Shown in pieces: positions 5,832-25,352 of a DNA stretch of 38,224 nt. The position numbers and the translations under genes were made by a program. The stretch is from a virus. Within the stretch, counting starts at the first letter, position 1; every line of letters begins with the position of its first letter. The DNA lies in the IMG/VR virus record IMGVR_UViG_3300037069_000529, positions 1-38,224 of that record, one strand, 5' to 3'. A model generated the notes under the pieces. That model worked only from the letters and a program-made list of their open reading frames with translations. It ran no database searches and had not been told where the DNA came from.

Positions 5832-6713
5832 GTGAAAGTAATATTGGCGCAGCCCTCTATCCCCCGGTTCAGCTGGGAGCTAGAGGTGCTGCTTACCAAT
5901 ATTCGTCAGTTCACTGACATGGAAGTGATCTTGCTTTTCAGTAAGCCACACGACTACGACAAGTCCGTACCTCAACATTTGGTTCGCAAATACCAAGGGG
6001 TGCGGGCTTTCGTCTATGAGGATAACCGCTTTGATAAGAGTTACATTCCCTCAATCCGGCCCTACCTGTGGTGGCAGTACCTCAAGGCAGACCCGGCGCG
6101 CGAGAATGAAACGTACTTTTACATCGACAGCGACGTGATATTCCGCGAGTGGCCCGACTTCAGTGCCATGCAAGTAAACGCCCTGCACTGGGCCGGGTCC
6201 AACTGCGATAGCTACATCGGTTACGACTACCTGAAACAGGTGACGCAGGGAGACGCGATCATCGGACGCATGGCTAGCTACTGCGGTATCGAGCCAAAGC
6301 AGATGATCGGCGTGCCCGGCATTGGCGCACAGCTCGTGATCGCTAACCCGACCGCGGAGATGTGGCAGAAGTCGTACAACCGAAGCAATATACTCTGGCA
6401 CTACCTCGACGGAGTGAACAGTAATATCCAGAAATGGACGGCGGAGATGTGGGCACAGCTTTGGACGTGGGTAGAGCATGGTATCACGCTCGACATGCCC
6501 GACGAACTGAACTTTTGCTGGGCCACCGACCCACTCGATAGGTGGGAGAACACAAAAATTATGCACAACTCGGGCGTCACAGAGGACACCGGCAAGCTAT
6601 TCTTCAAAGGCAAGTATCGGGACTACACCCCATTCGGCGAAGACTTCAGCTGGGTTGATACAAAAAAGTGTTCAAGAAAATATGTAGACGCAATAGAAAA
6701 GGTGATACGATAA
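5832..6713 (+). CDS. GT-A-fold glycosyltransferase
   Basis: 293 aa from a GTG start with AAGGG 8 nt upstream. The N-terminal half has a nucleotide-binding fold pattern (VILAQPSIPRFSWELEVLL) and the metal- and nucleotide-sugar-binding DXD motif YFYIDSDVIF (DSD, residues 99-101). The arrangement resembles GT8-like or capsule-type sugar transferases. No signal peptide or membrane segment, so it acts in the cytoplasm. It is encoded between the capsid and fibre genes, probably on the capsid transcript, which argues for modification of virion proteins during assembly rather than of host surface sugars. Acceptor and sugar are unknown; Thr-rich phage proteins are the obvious candidates. Confidence 0.8.
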   Translation: MKVILAQPSIPRFSWELEVLLTNIRQFTDMEVILLFSKPHDYDKSVPQHLVRKYQGVRAFVYEDNRFDKSYIPSIRPYLWWQYLKADPARENETYFYIDSDVIFREWPDFSAMQVNALHWAGSNCDSYIGYDYLKQVTQGDAIIGRMASYCGIEPKQMIGVPGIGAQLVIANPTAEMWQKSYNRSNILWHYLDGVNSNIQKWTAEMWAQLWTWVEHGITLDMPDELNFCWATDPLDRWENTKIMHNSGVTEDTGKLFFKGKYRDYTPFGEDFSWVDTKKCSRKYVDAIEKVIR

Positions 6714-11972: not shown

Positions 11973-12016
11973 AAAAAATAATCCAGTGGTCTCGCAGTAC
12001 CACTGGATTATTTTTT
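11973..12016. terminator. Strong bidirectional terminator between convergent operons
   Basis: A perfect 18-bp inverted repeat: the left arm (11973-11990) starts with A6 and ends CCAGTGGT, the right arm (11999-12016) starts ACCACTGG and ends T6, loop CTCGCAGT. A and T runs at the two ends make it work on both strands: for the lysis operon (backup of 11933-11964) and for the long minus-strand early operon arriving from the right. Confidence 0.92.
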
Positions 12017-12113: not shown

Positions 12114-12902
12114 TTAGTATAATCGTTTTTGTGTTTTACTTTGGAAGTTATATACGTCCTCTATCGAGCGGAGGCAGGTGCGGACCGCCGCTGCGGGACG
12201 GAATAACTCGCGAGCACTTTCGCGATCTAGCTTACTGAGAAACAAATCGTAATCGAAGTTCTCGCTATCTTTGAACAACCCCAATAGCGAGTGAGCCATC
12301 GGTGCATTCATTTTAACATTTGTTTTATCGATTATCTCCTGCAAACGCGAGAGTGCCCAGTTGGCCTCGGCCTCGTCCTCGACGAAGAACTCGCCGCGTC
12401 GAAAATCTAGGTCCAACTGGTGTCGCTGACCGCCAGCTAGGTAGACACGAATAATGCTTGGTGCAATCTTCGGGTACCGGTTGACGTACTCAAGGAATAT
12501 CTTATAATCATCTCGACCGCTCTCGGAGTAGCTGCGAGCAAAGTCCAACAGGGTCCAGCGTCGCTGGGTGAAGTTTAATACGCGCGTTTCATCGAGCGTC
12601 GCGCCGGGCGTCACAATGTAATACAGGGGAACGCCAAGCTCTTGGGCCGCCAGTCGTCGGTGTTGGCCGTCGATGATGAAAAAGTGCTCGTTTACTTGGA
12701 TTGGGCTACTCGGTAGAAGCTGTGGGTCGGCCTCCATGCTGCGCTTCAGGCGCTTCACGTGGTTGTAATCGACCGGACGGTTGCCCGCCATCAGCTTGAA
12801 TTTCAGGTAGTCAGTCGTAACTTGGATTTGTGGAATTTCGATGTCGTTTGCCTGCTGAGGCTGTGTGGCCTCAGCAGGTTTAGTGATTTGTGCCTGCGTC
12901 AT
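12114..12902 (-). CDS. ParB/Sulfiredoxin-fold protein
   Basis: 262 aa. Residues about 20-130 carry the ParB N-terminal fold: IEIPQIQVTTDYLKF, PVDYNHVKRLKRSMEAD and the signature IIDGQHRRLAAQELG (76-90), which in ParB/Srx proteins forms the nucleotide-binding box. No clear helix-turn-helix of chromosome-type ParB follows; the C-terminal half is helical and unfamiliar. TAGGAG precedes the ATG. It is the last gene of the early operon and there is no ParA. Phage proteins with this fold can be CTP-binding partition factors, nucleases or modification enzymes; which applies is open. Confidence 0.75.
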   Translation of the reverse strand: MTQAQITKPAEATQPQQANDIEIPQIQVTTDYLKFKLMAGNRPVDYNHVKRLKRSMEADPQLLPSSPIQVNEHFFIIDGQHRRLAAQELGVPLYYIVTPGATLDETRVLNFTQRRWTLLDFARSYSESGRDDYKIFLEYVNRYPKIAPSIIRVYLAGGQRHQLDLDFRRGEFFVEDEAEANWALSRLQEIIDKTNVKMNAPMAHSLLGLFKDSENFDYDLFLSKLDRESARELFRPAAAVRTCLRSIEDVYNFQSKTQKRLY

Positions 12903-21945: not shown

Positions 21946-22209
21946 TTACTCCTTGGCGGTCCAGTAAAAACGGCCGTCTTCCATTACGTTTGCCAACTCT
22001 TTAGCCATGTGTATGGCGTCCTCAATAGTCGCGCCATAATCGTCCGGCAAGTCGTTATCGTCAGTGTCCTCATATTTCCAGTCGATTACGTCCTGTAAGT
22101 CCACTAGATAATCAATACCGTCCTTGTCAATAAAATGGTAGTTCATATCCCAATCATGCCGTGGCGTGTAGACGCTGTAGCGTTTGTGGTTAATTATCGC
22201 GGTTGTCAT
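21946..22209 (-). CDS. Small acidic early protein, unknown
   Basis: 87 aa, rich in Asp and aromatic residues (RHDWDMNYHFIDKDGIDYLV, DWKYEDTDDNDLPDDYGATI). Surface charge is DNA-mimic-like but not decisive. Start overlaps the upstream stop (TAATG). Function unknown. Confidence 0.63.
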   Translation of the reverse strand: MTTAIINHKRYSVYTPRHDWDMNYHFIDKDGIDYLVDLQDVIDWKYEDTDDNDLPDDYGATIEDAIHMAKELANVMEDGRFYWTAKE

Positions 22210-22502
22210 TAGATAAACCTCACGTCAGTCTCAGGCAATGTTTCAAGTATTACCTCAAGTTGGCTATAGCGGTGCTTAATATCAAGCGCCACGGCCTTGG
22301 CTTGTACATATTCAATATCGTAGACCGTCAAGCTATAGGACAGTTCAAGTTCCCCGGCATAATAGCCGTCGCTTGCCGTCAAGTTCCACCCGGCCACGTT
22401 GCGATTATTTGCAATTTCTACTAAGTCGCGTAACAGTTTCGTCTTTGGCGTACTCGTGCCGGTGTTGTTTATATAAGTGCTAAAAGTGATTTTATAGTTC
22501 AC
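22209..22502 (-). CDS. First gene of the early minus-strand operon, unknown
   Basis: 97 aa from a GTG at 22502 preceded by AAGGAGG at 9 nt. Beta strand start (NYKITFSTYINNTG), helix (KTKLLRDLVEIANNRN), beta (LELSYSLTVYDIEYVQ) and a helical end. Being closest to the rightmost promoter it should be among the first products made. Function unknown. Confidence 0.63.
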   Translation of the reverse strand: MNYKITFSTYINNTGTSTPKTKLLRDLVEIANNRNVAGWNLTASDGYYAGELELSYSLTVYDIEYVQAKAVALDIKHRYSQLEVILETLPETDVRFI

Positions 22503-22640
22503 GTGCTTTGGCCTCCTTATGGCGTATTCGCTTACGTTTATCGTGATGTGCTACCGTTGCCGCCTAGATTAATATTCGCGGTGGTGGTGTGCTTGCCACT
22601 GGATACAGCGTAGCGCAAAACGTGCTACATTGCAACACGT
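22503..22640 (-). other. 5' leader of the early minus-strand operon
   Basis: About 130 nt between the first early gene and its promoter. I see no gene here. It contains the 19-bp quasi-palindrome at 22621-22639 right at the expected transcription start and the AAGGAGG of the first gene at the other end. Confidence 0.5.
22621..22639. promoter_or_regulatory. Putative operator CGTGCTAC-N3-GCAACACG
   Basis: A quasi-palindrome that recurs, with a 4-bp spacer, at 651-670. Its halves also occur at the early promoter 16316-16344. Here it overlaps the transcription start of the first early gene, where a bound protein would block initiation. Confidence 0.5.
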
Positions 22641-22649
22641 ATTATACCA
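22641..22649 (-). promoter_or_regulatory. Extended -10 promoter of the early operon
   Basis: Minus-strand TGG followed by perfect TATAAT (22646-22641). No good -35 at 17 bp; the extended -10 may suffice or an activator may help. It points left to the gene starting at 22502. Confidence 0.55.
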
Positions 22650-22670
22650 TTTGATATAACAATGTGTTGC

Positions 22671-22956
22671 ATAACAGAGGTAGAGTGATTGTTGTGAAAT
22701 TGTATAAATTCGATCGATATGGCGGTTATCCACAATTTGTAGACAGTTTCAAACACCCTAAAATAACAGAGGTAAAACCGTTTGTAGACACTTTGCCACT
22801 TATTAATTATAATAAAAGCTTGACAGCTAGTACCCTATAGCACCCCTGTTACGGACCGTGAAGCAAAAAAAAGTTAATTAATTAGAACGTAACTGTCTAC
22901 AAATTTGAACTCCCCTGTTATTTGAAAATTTGAAAGTGTCTACAAGCTGTGGAAAA
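22671..22956. other. Putative origin of replication with mirrored iterons and DnaA boxes
   Basis: Left arm: ATAACAGAGGTA (22671-22682), DnaA box TTATCCACA (22726-22734), TTTGTAGACA (22736-22745), ATAACAGAGGTA (22763-22774), TTTGTAGACA (22781-22790). Right arm, inverted: CCCCTGTTA (22843-22851), TGTCTACAAA (22894-22903), CCCCTGTTA (22912-22920), TGTCTACAAG (22937-22946), DnaA box as TGTGGAAAA (22948-22956). The arms from the DnaA boxes inward align over about 70 bp with one 2-bp gap. Between them is A+T-rich DNA (22800-22890) that could melt. It lies between divergent early operons and just before the D5 helicase gene. No gene is present. Confidence 0.75.
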
Positions 22957-22963
22957 CTACATT

Positions 22964-22994
22964 TTGACAACGTTGGAACACGACGTTGTATAAT
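22964..22994 (+). promoter_or_regulatory. Rightward promoter with dyad operator in a 19-bp spacer
   Basis: Perfect TTGACA (22964-22969) and perfect TATAAT (22989-22994) but 19 bp apart. A perfect dyad, ACAACGT-N9-ACGTTGT (22967-22989), fills the spacer. Long spacers with a dyad are typical of promoters that need an activator to twist the DNA (MerR type) or are shut by a repressor. It would transcribe towards the XRE gene and D5 helicase. Confidence 0.65.
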
Positions 22995-22999
22995 AGGCT

Positions 23000-23270
23000 T
23001 ATTAGAACATTGGATATTGATATTGCAAACGGCCGCCTATGGCCGCGCTTGACGTGCCCGCCGCGCGCTCTGAAACAGGACAACGTGCCCGCTTGTGCCT
23101 CATCGACCGGCGGGGGGGCAGTGTTGTGCCGGGCGCGGGTTTTGGGCGCTCCATCAATCCCAAATTTTTTTCTCATTTTTCCAAATAATATTAAAAAATA
23201 TTCCCTACCAATGTCAATTATCCCTCCTAGTATAGTGCCCCGATCAAACGAAAATCACCATATATAGCGC
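23000..23270 (+). other. Untranslated leader with a GC-rich, repeat-bearing segment
   Basis: No credible gene. Bases about 23028-23150 are very G+C-rich in an otherwise A+T-rich region, with ACGTGCCCGC present twice (near 23052 and 23082) and possible stems CGGCC/GGCCG and CCGGC/GCCGG. After 23160 it turns A/T-rich with T runs. It could be a structured leader or attenuator. Confidence 0.4.
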
Positions 23271-23299
23271 TTGCAAATGTGATTAGTAAGACTTATATT
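23271..23299 (+). promoter_or_regulatory. Promoter of the XRE regulator, leaderless type
   Basis: TTGCAA (23271-23276), 17 bp, TATATT (23294-23299). The ATG at 23309 is 9 bp beyond the -10 with no ribosome site, so the mRNA should be leaderless or nearly so. AATCAC (23253-23258) and GTGATT (23279-23284) form a dyad around the -35, a possible autoregulatory operator. Confidence 0.65.
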
Positions 23300-23308
23300 T
23301 AGTAGCAC

Positions 23309-23527
23309 ATGAAAACACAGGCAGATACTCAGGAAATCCCGAAATGGGTAGATATAATCAAACGGCTTCGTCGGGACCTTGACGAGACCCAAGCGCAGTT
23401 CGGCGAGCGCTTCGGGGTGACGCAATCAGCCGTGGCCCAGTGGGAGGCAGGGACCACCGCCCCTCCGGCCGCGGTGCTGTTACTGGCAATGGAGCGGTCC
23501 GCACACATGACCAATACGGTAACATAA
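23309..23527 (+). CDS. XRE/Cro-type helix-turn-helix regulator
   Basis: 72 aa. IIKRLRRDLDETQAQFGERFGVTQSAVAQWEAGTTAPP, residues 17-54, is a complete HTH_3 domain with recognition helix QSAVAQWEAG. It is a small one-domain protein without a dimerisation or cleavage domain, so more Cro-like than a full CI. It likely controls the promoters beside the origin. The mRNA appears leaderless, as with lambda cI from its maintenance promoter. No integrase is present, so this need not mean lysogeny. Confidence 0.85.
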   Translation: MKTQADTQEIPKWVDIIKRLRRDLDETQAQFGERFGVTQSAVAQWEAGTTAPPAAVLLLAMERSAHMTNTVT

Positions 23528-23562
23528 CGGTAGAACAAAGCAGCATAAGAGGGTAAAAACAA

Positions 23563-25104
23563 ATGGCAAAGCAGACTATGGGGCTACTGGACCAAGACGG
23601 TCCGATCGACGAGGAGACGGGACGGGTACAACCGGCGACGGTGGTGGCTCGGCGGGCGCTTAAGGTGATGGAGACGAGCAGCTTCGTCCGGTTCAAGGGG
23701 CGCTGTCTGGTACTGGTCCAAGACGGGGGGTTCCCGCATTACGTGCCGCTGCGCAAGGAATACTTCGACCAGATCGCCTATGGGACGTGGGGCGGGCTGA
23801 CCCGGGGACAGGTGAGCGACATGTATGCGTTCGTGCAGAATACCGCGCCCGACCTCAACGCCAACGCCAGCCTGATTGCCTTTGGCAACACCGCCATGCC
23901 CGACGATTACGACCCGTTTTCCGACGGTCCCGACAAGACCTCGCGGGCGACATGGTTTCAGCCGGTGGTCTGGGACATGCAAGAGCTGACGTGGCGGCCG
24001 GAGTGCGCGCCGGTGGATTGCGTCTGGCGCAGTCCGTATTCGCCGCTGGGGTCCCCGGCTGAGTTCATGTTTATCGGGGACCAGCTTGACGAGGGGCGGC
24101 CCCGGATTAAGTTTATATTGGACCTCGCCGGGGGGGACTTCGGGCTGTATGACGACATCATGCAGAGCATGGCCCCGATCATTATGGATAAGAAGCCTGA
24201 CGGCGTGGTGTGGTGGGTCGGTAACGGGGCCAACGGTAAGAGCACCCTGATGGACGCGCTGTATCGCATGTTCCCGGGCCACTTCGCCAACATCACCGTC
24301 AAGCGCCTGACCGACGGCCGCGACAACCCGAGCCTCAACGGGGTGCTGGCTAACATCGTCAAGGAGAGCAGCGAGGGCCGGGTGGACGACACGGAGGTGT
24401 ATAAGAGCCTCGGTACCCACGAGAATTTTGAGGCCCACAAGTTCCACTCGCAGGAGAGCATTACCATTAACGGCAATATCCACACGATTTTCTCGGCCAA
24501 CACCATTCCCGCCTTTAACGACAAGGGCCACTCCGCCAAGCGCCGGACGTTTATCATTCCGTTTCGGGAGCAGTTCGAGAGCGACCCCGACTTCGAGCGC
24601 AAGACCTTTACGCCGGAGTTCTTCGCGACCTTGGCCCGCGAGATGGGCCGCTACGCCAACATATTGAAGCGGCAGGGGTATCGCTACAAGTGGAGTGCGA
24701 TCACGGCCGGAGCCAAGGAGGACTACGACCACGAGGCGTCAAATGCGGAGGAGTATGTGCGCCAGATGGTCAATCAGGGGTTGGTCGCCTTTACCGGCTT
24801 CCACCCGATCAAGATGGATTACGAGAACTGGTGCGCGGACGAGGGGTATGTGCCGCTCGGTATCACCAATTTGCGTAAGGCCATGCGCGCCGCGGGCTTC
24901 GAGGACACCACGACCCGCAAGGACGATGGGTCAGTCACCCGCCTGTATCGCCTCAGCACGATCGACGCCAAGGCCCCGCTGGAGATGATGAGCCTCGGCC
25001 GACCCGGCCTGTTTACCACCTATGGGTTCGTGACGCCGGAGAAAAAGGCGGAAGAAGCGGAAAAAAAGACTAGACAAACGACCATACTTGATGGTAAATG
25101 GTAA
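23563..25104 (+). CDS. D5-like SF3 replicative helicase
   Basis: 513 aa. D5_N-like region about 100-210 and an SF3 AAA+ core: Walker A GNGANGKST (220-228), LNGVLANIVKES as motif B-like with an acidic end, sensor 1 TIFSANTIPAF, and the arginine finger region SAKRRTFIIPF. The C-terminal part (YVRQMVNQGLV, MDYENWCADEG, LRKAMRAAGFE) is winged-helix-like DNA binding. No TOPRIM or AEP primase motifs in the first 100 residues. It should load at the adjacent origin and unwind it. Codon usage is visibly richer in GGG/CCC/GCC than in the neighbours, hinting at separate ancestry. Confidence 0.9.
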   Translation: MAKQTMGLLDQDGPIDEETGRVQPATVVARRALKVMETSSFVRFKGRCLVLVQDGGFPHYVPLRKEYFDQIAYGTWGGLTRGQVSDMYAFVQNTAPDLNANASLIAFGNTAMPDDYDPFSDGPDKTSRATWFQPVVWDMQELTWRPECAPVDCVWRSPYSPLGSPAEFMFIGDQLDEGRPRIKFILDLAGGDFGLYDDIMQSMAPIIMDKKPDGVVWWVGNGANGKSTLMDALYRMFPGHFANITVKRLTDGRDNPSLNGVLANIVKESSEGRVDDTEVYKSLGTHENFEAHKFHSQESITINGNIHTIFSANTIPAFNDKGHSAKRRTFIIPFREQFESDPDFERKTFTPEFFATLAREMGRYANILKRQGYRYKWSAITAGAKEDYDHEASNAEEYVRQMVNQGLVAFTGFHPIKMDYENWCADEGYVPLGITNLRKAMRAAGFEDTTTRKDDGSVTRLYRLSTIDAKAPLEMMSLGRPGLFTTYGFVTPEKKAEEAEKKTRQTTILDGKW

Positions 25105-25352
25105 GCATGGACACTTTAACACAAACACTCCACTACGTCTTTCTTCACATGACGGGTATCGACACGCAGCAGTCGTATTTCTATGACTTCTGGTCGGGGA
25201 TTGCCACGCAGCTGAGCGTCTTCGGCGGCGTCCTCGCGCTGTATTTCCACAAGAATTGCCATGTCCGGCTCTGCCCGCGCCTCGGCCACCCCAATACCAA
25301 CGGCGTCGTTTACTGTAAGAGGCATAACCCCGATGGACCCGTTTCACGGTAA
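25098..25352 (+). CDS. Membrane protein with Cys/His tail, copy 1
   Basis: 84 aa (or 81 from the ATG at 25107). A membrane span (IATQLSVFGGVLALYF) followed by CHVRLCPRLGHPNTNGVVYCKRHNP, a Cys/His cluster. The next gene has the same order with a closely similar cluster, so the two are tandem paralogues. The motif C-x4-C-x-R-x-GH ... YCK-x-H-x-P is likely a small metal-binding module on the cytoplasmic face. Function unknown. Confidence 0.68.
   Translation: MVSMDTLTQTLHYVFLHMTGIDTQQSYFYDFWSGIATQLSVFGGVLALYFHKNCHVRLCPRLGHPNTNGVVYCKRHNPDGPVSR

Follow-up and report, generated by a model that had tools for sequence, protein, structure and literature searches.

Genomic context and layout of the array

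The window is the whole 38,224-nt stretch of IMG/VR virus record IMGVR_UViG_3300037069_000529, and the phage it represents is called W here. The two ends of W are near-identical (104 nt, 2 mismatches) and give a circular map of about 38.1 kb, which agrees with the circular genome assumed in a preliminary description of this DNA. At 22.5-23.3 kb, a gap separates a leftward operon from a rightward operon that carries an XRE gene and a D5-type helicase gene. A repeat array lies within this gap, and its features are collected in Table 1.

Each arm of the array is made of a DnaA box, an iteron A (TTTGTAGACA), a motif B (AACAGRGGTR) and a second A, and the two arms lie on opposite strands. This mirrored layout had been proposed in the preliminary description and was confirmed element by element. 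When distances are counted between first bases, the DnaA-to-A offset is 10 in both arms, as described before. The offset from B to the inner A is 16/16 and that from A to B is 29/27; the equality of the former and the 2-bp difference of the latter were reproduced, but the earlier figures of 20/20 and 25/23 were not, because the first base of B had been chosen differently, by a constant. Two extra B copies, one outer and one central, lie outside the strict mirror. The AT-rich core has an AT content of 65%, which is the 98.8th percentile of the 103-bp windows of W.

Table 1. Features of the array of W and its surroundings (window coordinates).
Feature	Position	Strand	First base	Remark
First gene of leftward operon	22209..22502	-		97 aa, no assigned function
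Leftward promoter -10 (extended, TGG-TATAAT)	22641..22646	-		consensus match only
Outer B copy AACAGAGGTA	22673..22682	+		outside strict mirror
DnaA box TTATCCACA	22726..22734	+	22726	left arm; not conserved in relatives
A1 iteron TTTGTAGACAGTT	22736..22748	+	22736	left arm
B1 AACAGAGGTA	22765..22774	+	22765	left arm, between outer and inner A; same place in L002, L004, L005
A2 iteron TTTGTAGACACTT	22781..22793	+	22781	left arm
AT-rich core	22791..22893	none		candidate unwinding element; AT tracts at 22791-22822 (75% AT) and 22864-22888 (84% AT)
Central B copy AACAGGGGTG	22841..22850	-		outside strict mirror
A3 iteron TTTGTAGACAGTT	22891..22903	-	22903	right arm
B2 AACAGGGGAG	22910..22919	-	22919	right arm
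A4 iteron CTTGTAGACACTT	22934..22946	-	22946	right arm
DnaA box TTTTCCACA	22948..22956	-	22956	right arm
Rightward promoter-like TTGACA - 19 nt - TATAAT	22964..22994	+		also in L002
XRE/HTH_3 small protein	23309..23527	+		72 aa
D5-type AAA+ helicase (DUF5906)	23563..25104	+		513 aa; C-terminal winged helix ~392-475; proposed initiator

The right-arm DnaA box and the -35 of the rightward promoter-like sequence share a block of about 25 bp that is identical in the related phage L002. The 19-nt spacer of this sequence is longer than usual and was missed by a scan with 16-18 nt spacers.

In the leader of the rightward operon, a G-rich element GACCGGCGGGGGGGCAGTGTTG precedes GGGTTTTGGGCGCTCCATCA and a short hairpin that has a run of T (window 23118-23175; L002 7517-7575). 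The element is strongly conserved, with variant forms in the relatives L004 and L005, and a search with its pattern returned the known relatives and one false match, L010, in a terminase gene. An attenuator, a terminator or an RNA/DNA hybrid site is possible. Rfam gave no RNA family at 22400-23600, and the idea of a small RNA in the leader at 23000-23176 was dropped, as its folding stability is not unusual (z -1.0; L002 likewise).

Inverted repeats within the window

The number of inverted exact 8-mer matches within 22650-22970 was 22, compared with a mean of 1.6 and a maximum of 12 in 2,000 dinucleotide shuffles. This is the top 320-bp window of W for inverted 8-mers, and none elsewhere exceeded 15. 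When up to one mismatch was allowed, A was found four times in the whole window, always inside the array. The second-best inverted-repeat place of W, at about 11.7-12.1 kb, holds a perfect hairpin between convergent genes (window 11973-12016; 18-bp inverted repeat, 8-nt loop, ends with A/T runs), which is probably a two-way terminator.

Conservation in related phages

Six relatives were obtained by D5-based searches (L002, L004, L005, L015, L016/G006 and L017/G007), giving seven phages with W. They are syntenic with W across most early genes. The D5 protein of L002 is 73% identical to that of W, and L003 has the gap sequence of L002. A DNA-level search of annotated phages with 22200-25200 gave no matches, and a protein search of annotated phages returned only distant Paenibacillus phage primases.

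Clusters of A, with 4-8 copies each, are present in the homologous gap of all six relatives. Conservation of the mirrored order had been put forward as a check on the preliminary description, and it was borne out: the order A-B-A is kept, and L002, L004 and L005 have facing arms. With the direction of A set by TTTGTNNACASTT, the pattern is ++ / -- in W (spacings 45/111/43), +++ / --- in L002 (33,9/111/8,34), ++ / --- in L004 (33/115/33,10) and +-++ / ---- in L005 (16,19,9/132/9,34,10), the last with one extra inverted A in its left arm. W and L002 share an inner gap of 111 bp despite their diverged centre. In W, L002 and L005, B is flanked by the outer and the inner A in each arm, and the left-arm copy of L005 is inverted; in L004, B has this place in the left arm, with a degenerate copy in the right arm. 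The same sites, with looser order and mirror, are found in L015, L017 and G006. The common plan seems to be a mirrored arm of the form A-34-A-9-A, of which W would keep the outer and the innermost A of each arm.

The DnaA boxes, which the preliminary description had counted as part of the plan, do not belong to what is conserved. L002 retains only the right box within its array, L005 has two boxes about 170 bp outside the array, and none was found in the 20.8 kb contig of L004. With two boxes in W, a conserved DnaA-box cluster of the oriC type is not present among these phages.

A second conserved inverted repeat, CGTCGCACAA ... TTGTGCGACG, accompanies B motifs in the relatives, on the downstream side of the A array (L004 rc 6129-6154; L005 rc 5941-5966; L015 5375-5400; L017 2690-2715). 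It is not clearly present in the window, and in the relatives it is probably an operator of the rightward promoter.

Motif A is phage-specific and motif B is host-wide

The core bases of A are uniform within each of W, L002, L004, L005, L015 and L017. They are AG in W and L005, AT in L002, and GT in L004, L015 and L017; the copies of G006 have a mixed core, GG and GT. In the alignment of W with L002, the same substitution is found in all four A copies, giving the two versions TGTAGACA and TGTATACA. The joint change of the core within each phage indicates that A, which is close to palindromic, is probably read by one phage-encoded protein. A was not enriched in 61 genomes from the class to which G008, a Saccharibacteria genome, belongs.

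B occurs 43 times in G008, compared with 4 for the reversed control, and 631 times over the 61 class genomes, compared with 228 for the control. At least 15 copies were found in 17 of the 61 genomes; no genome reached this number with the control. Since B is found genome-wide across Saccharibacteria, its binder is probably a host protein, and these counts make B most likely a target of a DNA-binding protein of the host. The copies in the host genomes look like sites of an undescribed host regulator. Among the 60 host sites inspected (L019-L038 and L050-L089), many lie between genes, and four lie directly after a -10 hexamer; a fixed place after the -10 hexamer was therefore rejected as a general rule. 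Host B copies are sometimes found directly after the TATAAT of tRNA promoters, and in G020 a second CTGTT half follows 11 bp on (L059, L063, L069).

The host of W is probably a member of the Saccharibacteria, as judged from a D5 relative, a contig of G112 and the common occurrence of B. The sole chromosomal D5 relative in the genome scan lies within a Saccharibacteria genome. G112 contig C16 (L101-L104), in a genome of the Saccharibacteria class, is circular, with 37,354 bp and a 141-nt terminal repeat, and encodes a D5 homologue and a terminase with 50% identity; its placement in that genome could be a binning artefact.

The D5 helicase as candidate reader of motif A

The preliminary description proposed an origin of replication and did not name the initiator that binds A and B. 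D5 itself is now the best candidate for reading A. It is found in all seven phages, and in W it matches the Pfam family DUF5906 above the cut-off as well as PHROG primase/helicase families. By both sequence and fold, its closest solved structure is the SaPI5 primase-helicase (7ola/7om0), with a profile E of 2.9e-7 for 7ola, a Foldseek E of 1e-5 and Z of 13.9-14.1; identity to the SaPI5 protein over the aligned parts is about 14%. Weaker fold matches include the head-to-head double hexamer of MPXV E5 (9im3). A primase domain was not detected in the D5 helicase of W. The model of W D5 has a mean pLDDT of 63, with a poor AAA+ core and a winged helix at about 67-88. Residues 390-470 show the winged-helix order of elements in the model, and residues 392-475 match winged helices in fold, at modest Z of 5-6.

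W and L005, which both have the A core AG, share T435, R442 and A444 in the predicted recognition helix, and these residues are absent in the other five phages. Agreement restricted to W and L005 was found in 16 alignment columns, 3 of them within the 15-residue stretch of the recognition helix (P ~0.009, from few columns picked after the fact). In the recognition helix, W is 87% identical to L005 and 73% to L002, and over the whole of D5 the order is reversed, 57% vs 73%. This covariation of helix and core is suggestive of D5 as the reader of A, short of proof.

The XRE protein is the first rightward gene product in four phages. As reader of A it was rejected, as it is missing in G004, G006 and G007, three of the seven phages, all of which keep A; no XRE homologue was found in G006 or G007. 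In L005, which is among the three, a reading frame resembling an HNH endonuclease occupies the XRE place just upstream of D5 (rc 6249-6602).

GC skew

In all five long phages, the detrended cumulative GC skew reaches its lowest point 0.5-1.4 kb to the left of the array. This raw minimum could arise from the divergent early genes alone. When all third positions were used, the skew looked consistent with forks leaving the array; however, the test at fourfold sites did not hold. With gene strand controlled, the leading-strand effect at fourfold sites in W was 0.019 (-0.050 to 0.084), and the 95% intervals of the strand-controlled skew include zero in all five long phages. In W, G001 and G005, the best free skew fits capture nothing beyond the 4-5 kb early operon. 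Skew is thus not counted as support for an origin, and it does not speak against one either.

A probable origin, D5 as its proposed binder, and the alternatives

The segment 22671-22956 is, in our judgement, quite probably a theta origin in which the A iterons would be bound by the C-terminal winged helix of D5. The origin reading of the preliminary description remains the best supported, and the order of A and B is conserved; its use of the DnaA boxes as an element of the plan fell with the comparison of relatives. As in iteron origins with a self-loading helicase of the D5/SaPI Rep type, a D5-group AAA+ gene adjoins the repeats, and four A copies surround the 65% AT core. D5, encoded 600 bp right of the origin, would bind the A iterons, and the inward-facing sets of A would position one helicase assembly on each side of the core, about 111 bp from the other. 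By analogy with SaPI Rep, it is plausible that two helicases load facing each other. The two assemblies would then melt the core and depart in opposite directions as two forks. A Saccharibacteria protein on B would probably join the complex, or bend or control it, and the DnaA boxes would be optional helpers, with DnaA helping or controlling where they are present. Some observations speak against the origin reading: the SaPI origin lies downstream of rep, and here D5 has the array on its upstream side; L015, L017 and G006 show a looser mirror; and the related G112 C16 has a D5 gene with no A array in the scanned 28 of its 37 kb, so that this contig probably has an origin of another design.

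That short words merely clustered by chance in this AT-rich gap has next to no probability. The 65% AT of the gap makes random matches likelier, but none of the 2,000 dinucleotide shuffles reached the observed count, and this reading is already contradicted by the recurrence of the layout in related phages. A partition site, in which the array would be a centromere bound by the ParB-like protein encoded at 12114-12902, can draw on the presence of a ParB-like gene in five of the seven phages and on the nearly palindromic A, which resembles many parS sites. It would leave the D5 neighbourhood and the AT-rich core unexplained, and it is very improbable because G007 has the A array and a 95-nt terminal repeat without a detectable ParB.

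The main rival is a control region of two divergent early promoters, in which A would serve a phage regulator (XRE or another) and B a host regulator, and the mirror would simply serve two promoters facing away from each other. The array does lie where two operons diverge, and each arm has a promoter-like sequence on its outer side; A4, close to -60 relative to the rightward start, is placed like an activator site; XRE leads the rightward genes in four phages; and the host copies of B are often intergenic, a few of them directly behind a -10 hexamer. However, the XRE gene is lacking in several phages that retain A, no A is found at any other promoter of the window, and the A sites overlap neither promoter. 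The distances of A from the predicted starts differ, about -60 on the right vs about -107 on the left, and the right distance is -88 or -89 in L005 and L004, yet the mirror geometry is kept. Promoter control is for these reasons considered unlikely as the reading of the array, and origin and control functions may coexist, as in many compact origins. Also unlikely is a version of the proposed origin in which A is read, and the helicase loaded, by host DnaA or by some protein besides D5; it agrees with the preferred explanation on the origin and differs solely in the reader of A. The two DnaA boxes at equal offset in the arms of W and the early proteins p184, p192 and p253, conserved in all relatives, are in its favour. 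Against it, the DnaA boxes have no conserved position and are absent from the L004 contig, and Pfam gave no DNA-binding domain in the other conserved proteins, while D5 has one.

Comparison with known origins

The SaPI origins were compared by description (PMC7581432 and general background). In SaPI Rep, the iterons are recognised by the C-terminal domain, and two hexamers appear to bind; in Cch2 of SCCmec, a relative in the D5 group, the iteron is needed for unwinding and is bound by the isolated C-terminal domain (PMC7581432). As in SaPI Rep/PriRep1 (SaPI5 7ola, 7om0; Cch2), W has a D5/Primase_Cterm AAA+ protein with a C-terminal winged helix adjoining short iterons. Unlike in SaPI, the proposed origin of W lies upstream of the helicase gene, where two operons diverge; a primase domain was not detected in the helicase; and the arms of the array contain the host-genome motif B and sometimes DnaA boxes. 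Because the array is upstream of D5, not downstream as in SaPI, it is not classed as a strict SaPI origin.

The alpha protein of phage P4 uses a winged helix to bind the repeats of its origin, and it unwinds the DNA afterwards (PMC4234260). The likeness to P4 ori/crr and alpha is a single origin-binding and unwinding protein, a role proposed here for D5 by analogy. The P4 alpha protein has its own TOPRIM-type primase, and P4 requires a second element, crr. In lambda-type origins, direct iterons lie on one side of an AT-rich region and are used with O protein and host DnaB. The iterons of W likewise lie beside an AT-rich tract; however, they flank it from both sides with opposite orientations, and W codes for a helicase of its own. 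The helicases of SV40 T antigen and papillomavirus E1 are loaded as facing double hexamers. T antigen and E1 differ from the proposed D5 mode in that they recognise the origin through an N-terminal domain (PMC7581432), and they belong to eukaryotic viruses, as does poxvirus D5/E5.

The proposed origin is of a known kind, a self-loading helicase beside iterons of the SaPI/P4 type, and is not a new kind of origin. What is new is the strictly mirrored layout, in which each arm encloses a host-genome motif, and its conservation with matched changes of A in phages that probably infect Saccharibacteria. No described origin of a Saccharibacteria phage was found in the open-access papers searched. Tentatively, and with more doubt than confidence, each arm may join a fast-changing, phage-specific A with a fixed host-protein site B, so that two D5 assemblies would be set opposite each other, controlled by the host and needing no separate initiator or loader. 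The variants of A, each beside its own D5 gene, form a ready set for the question of how a D5-type helicase reads its origin, and serve as well for the question of face-to-face double loading. The B motif suggests that Saccharibacteria genomes widely share a DNA-binding protein yet to be described.
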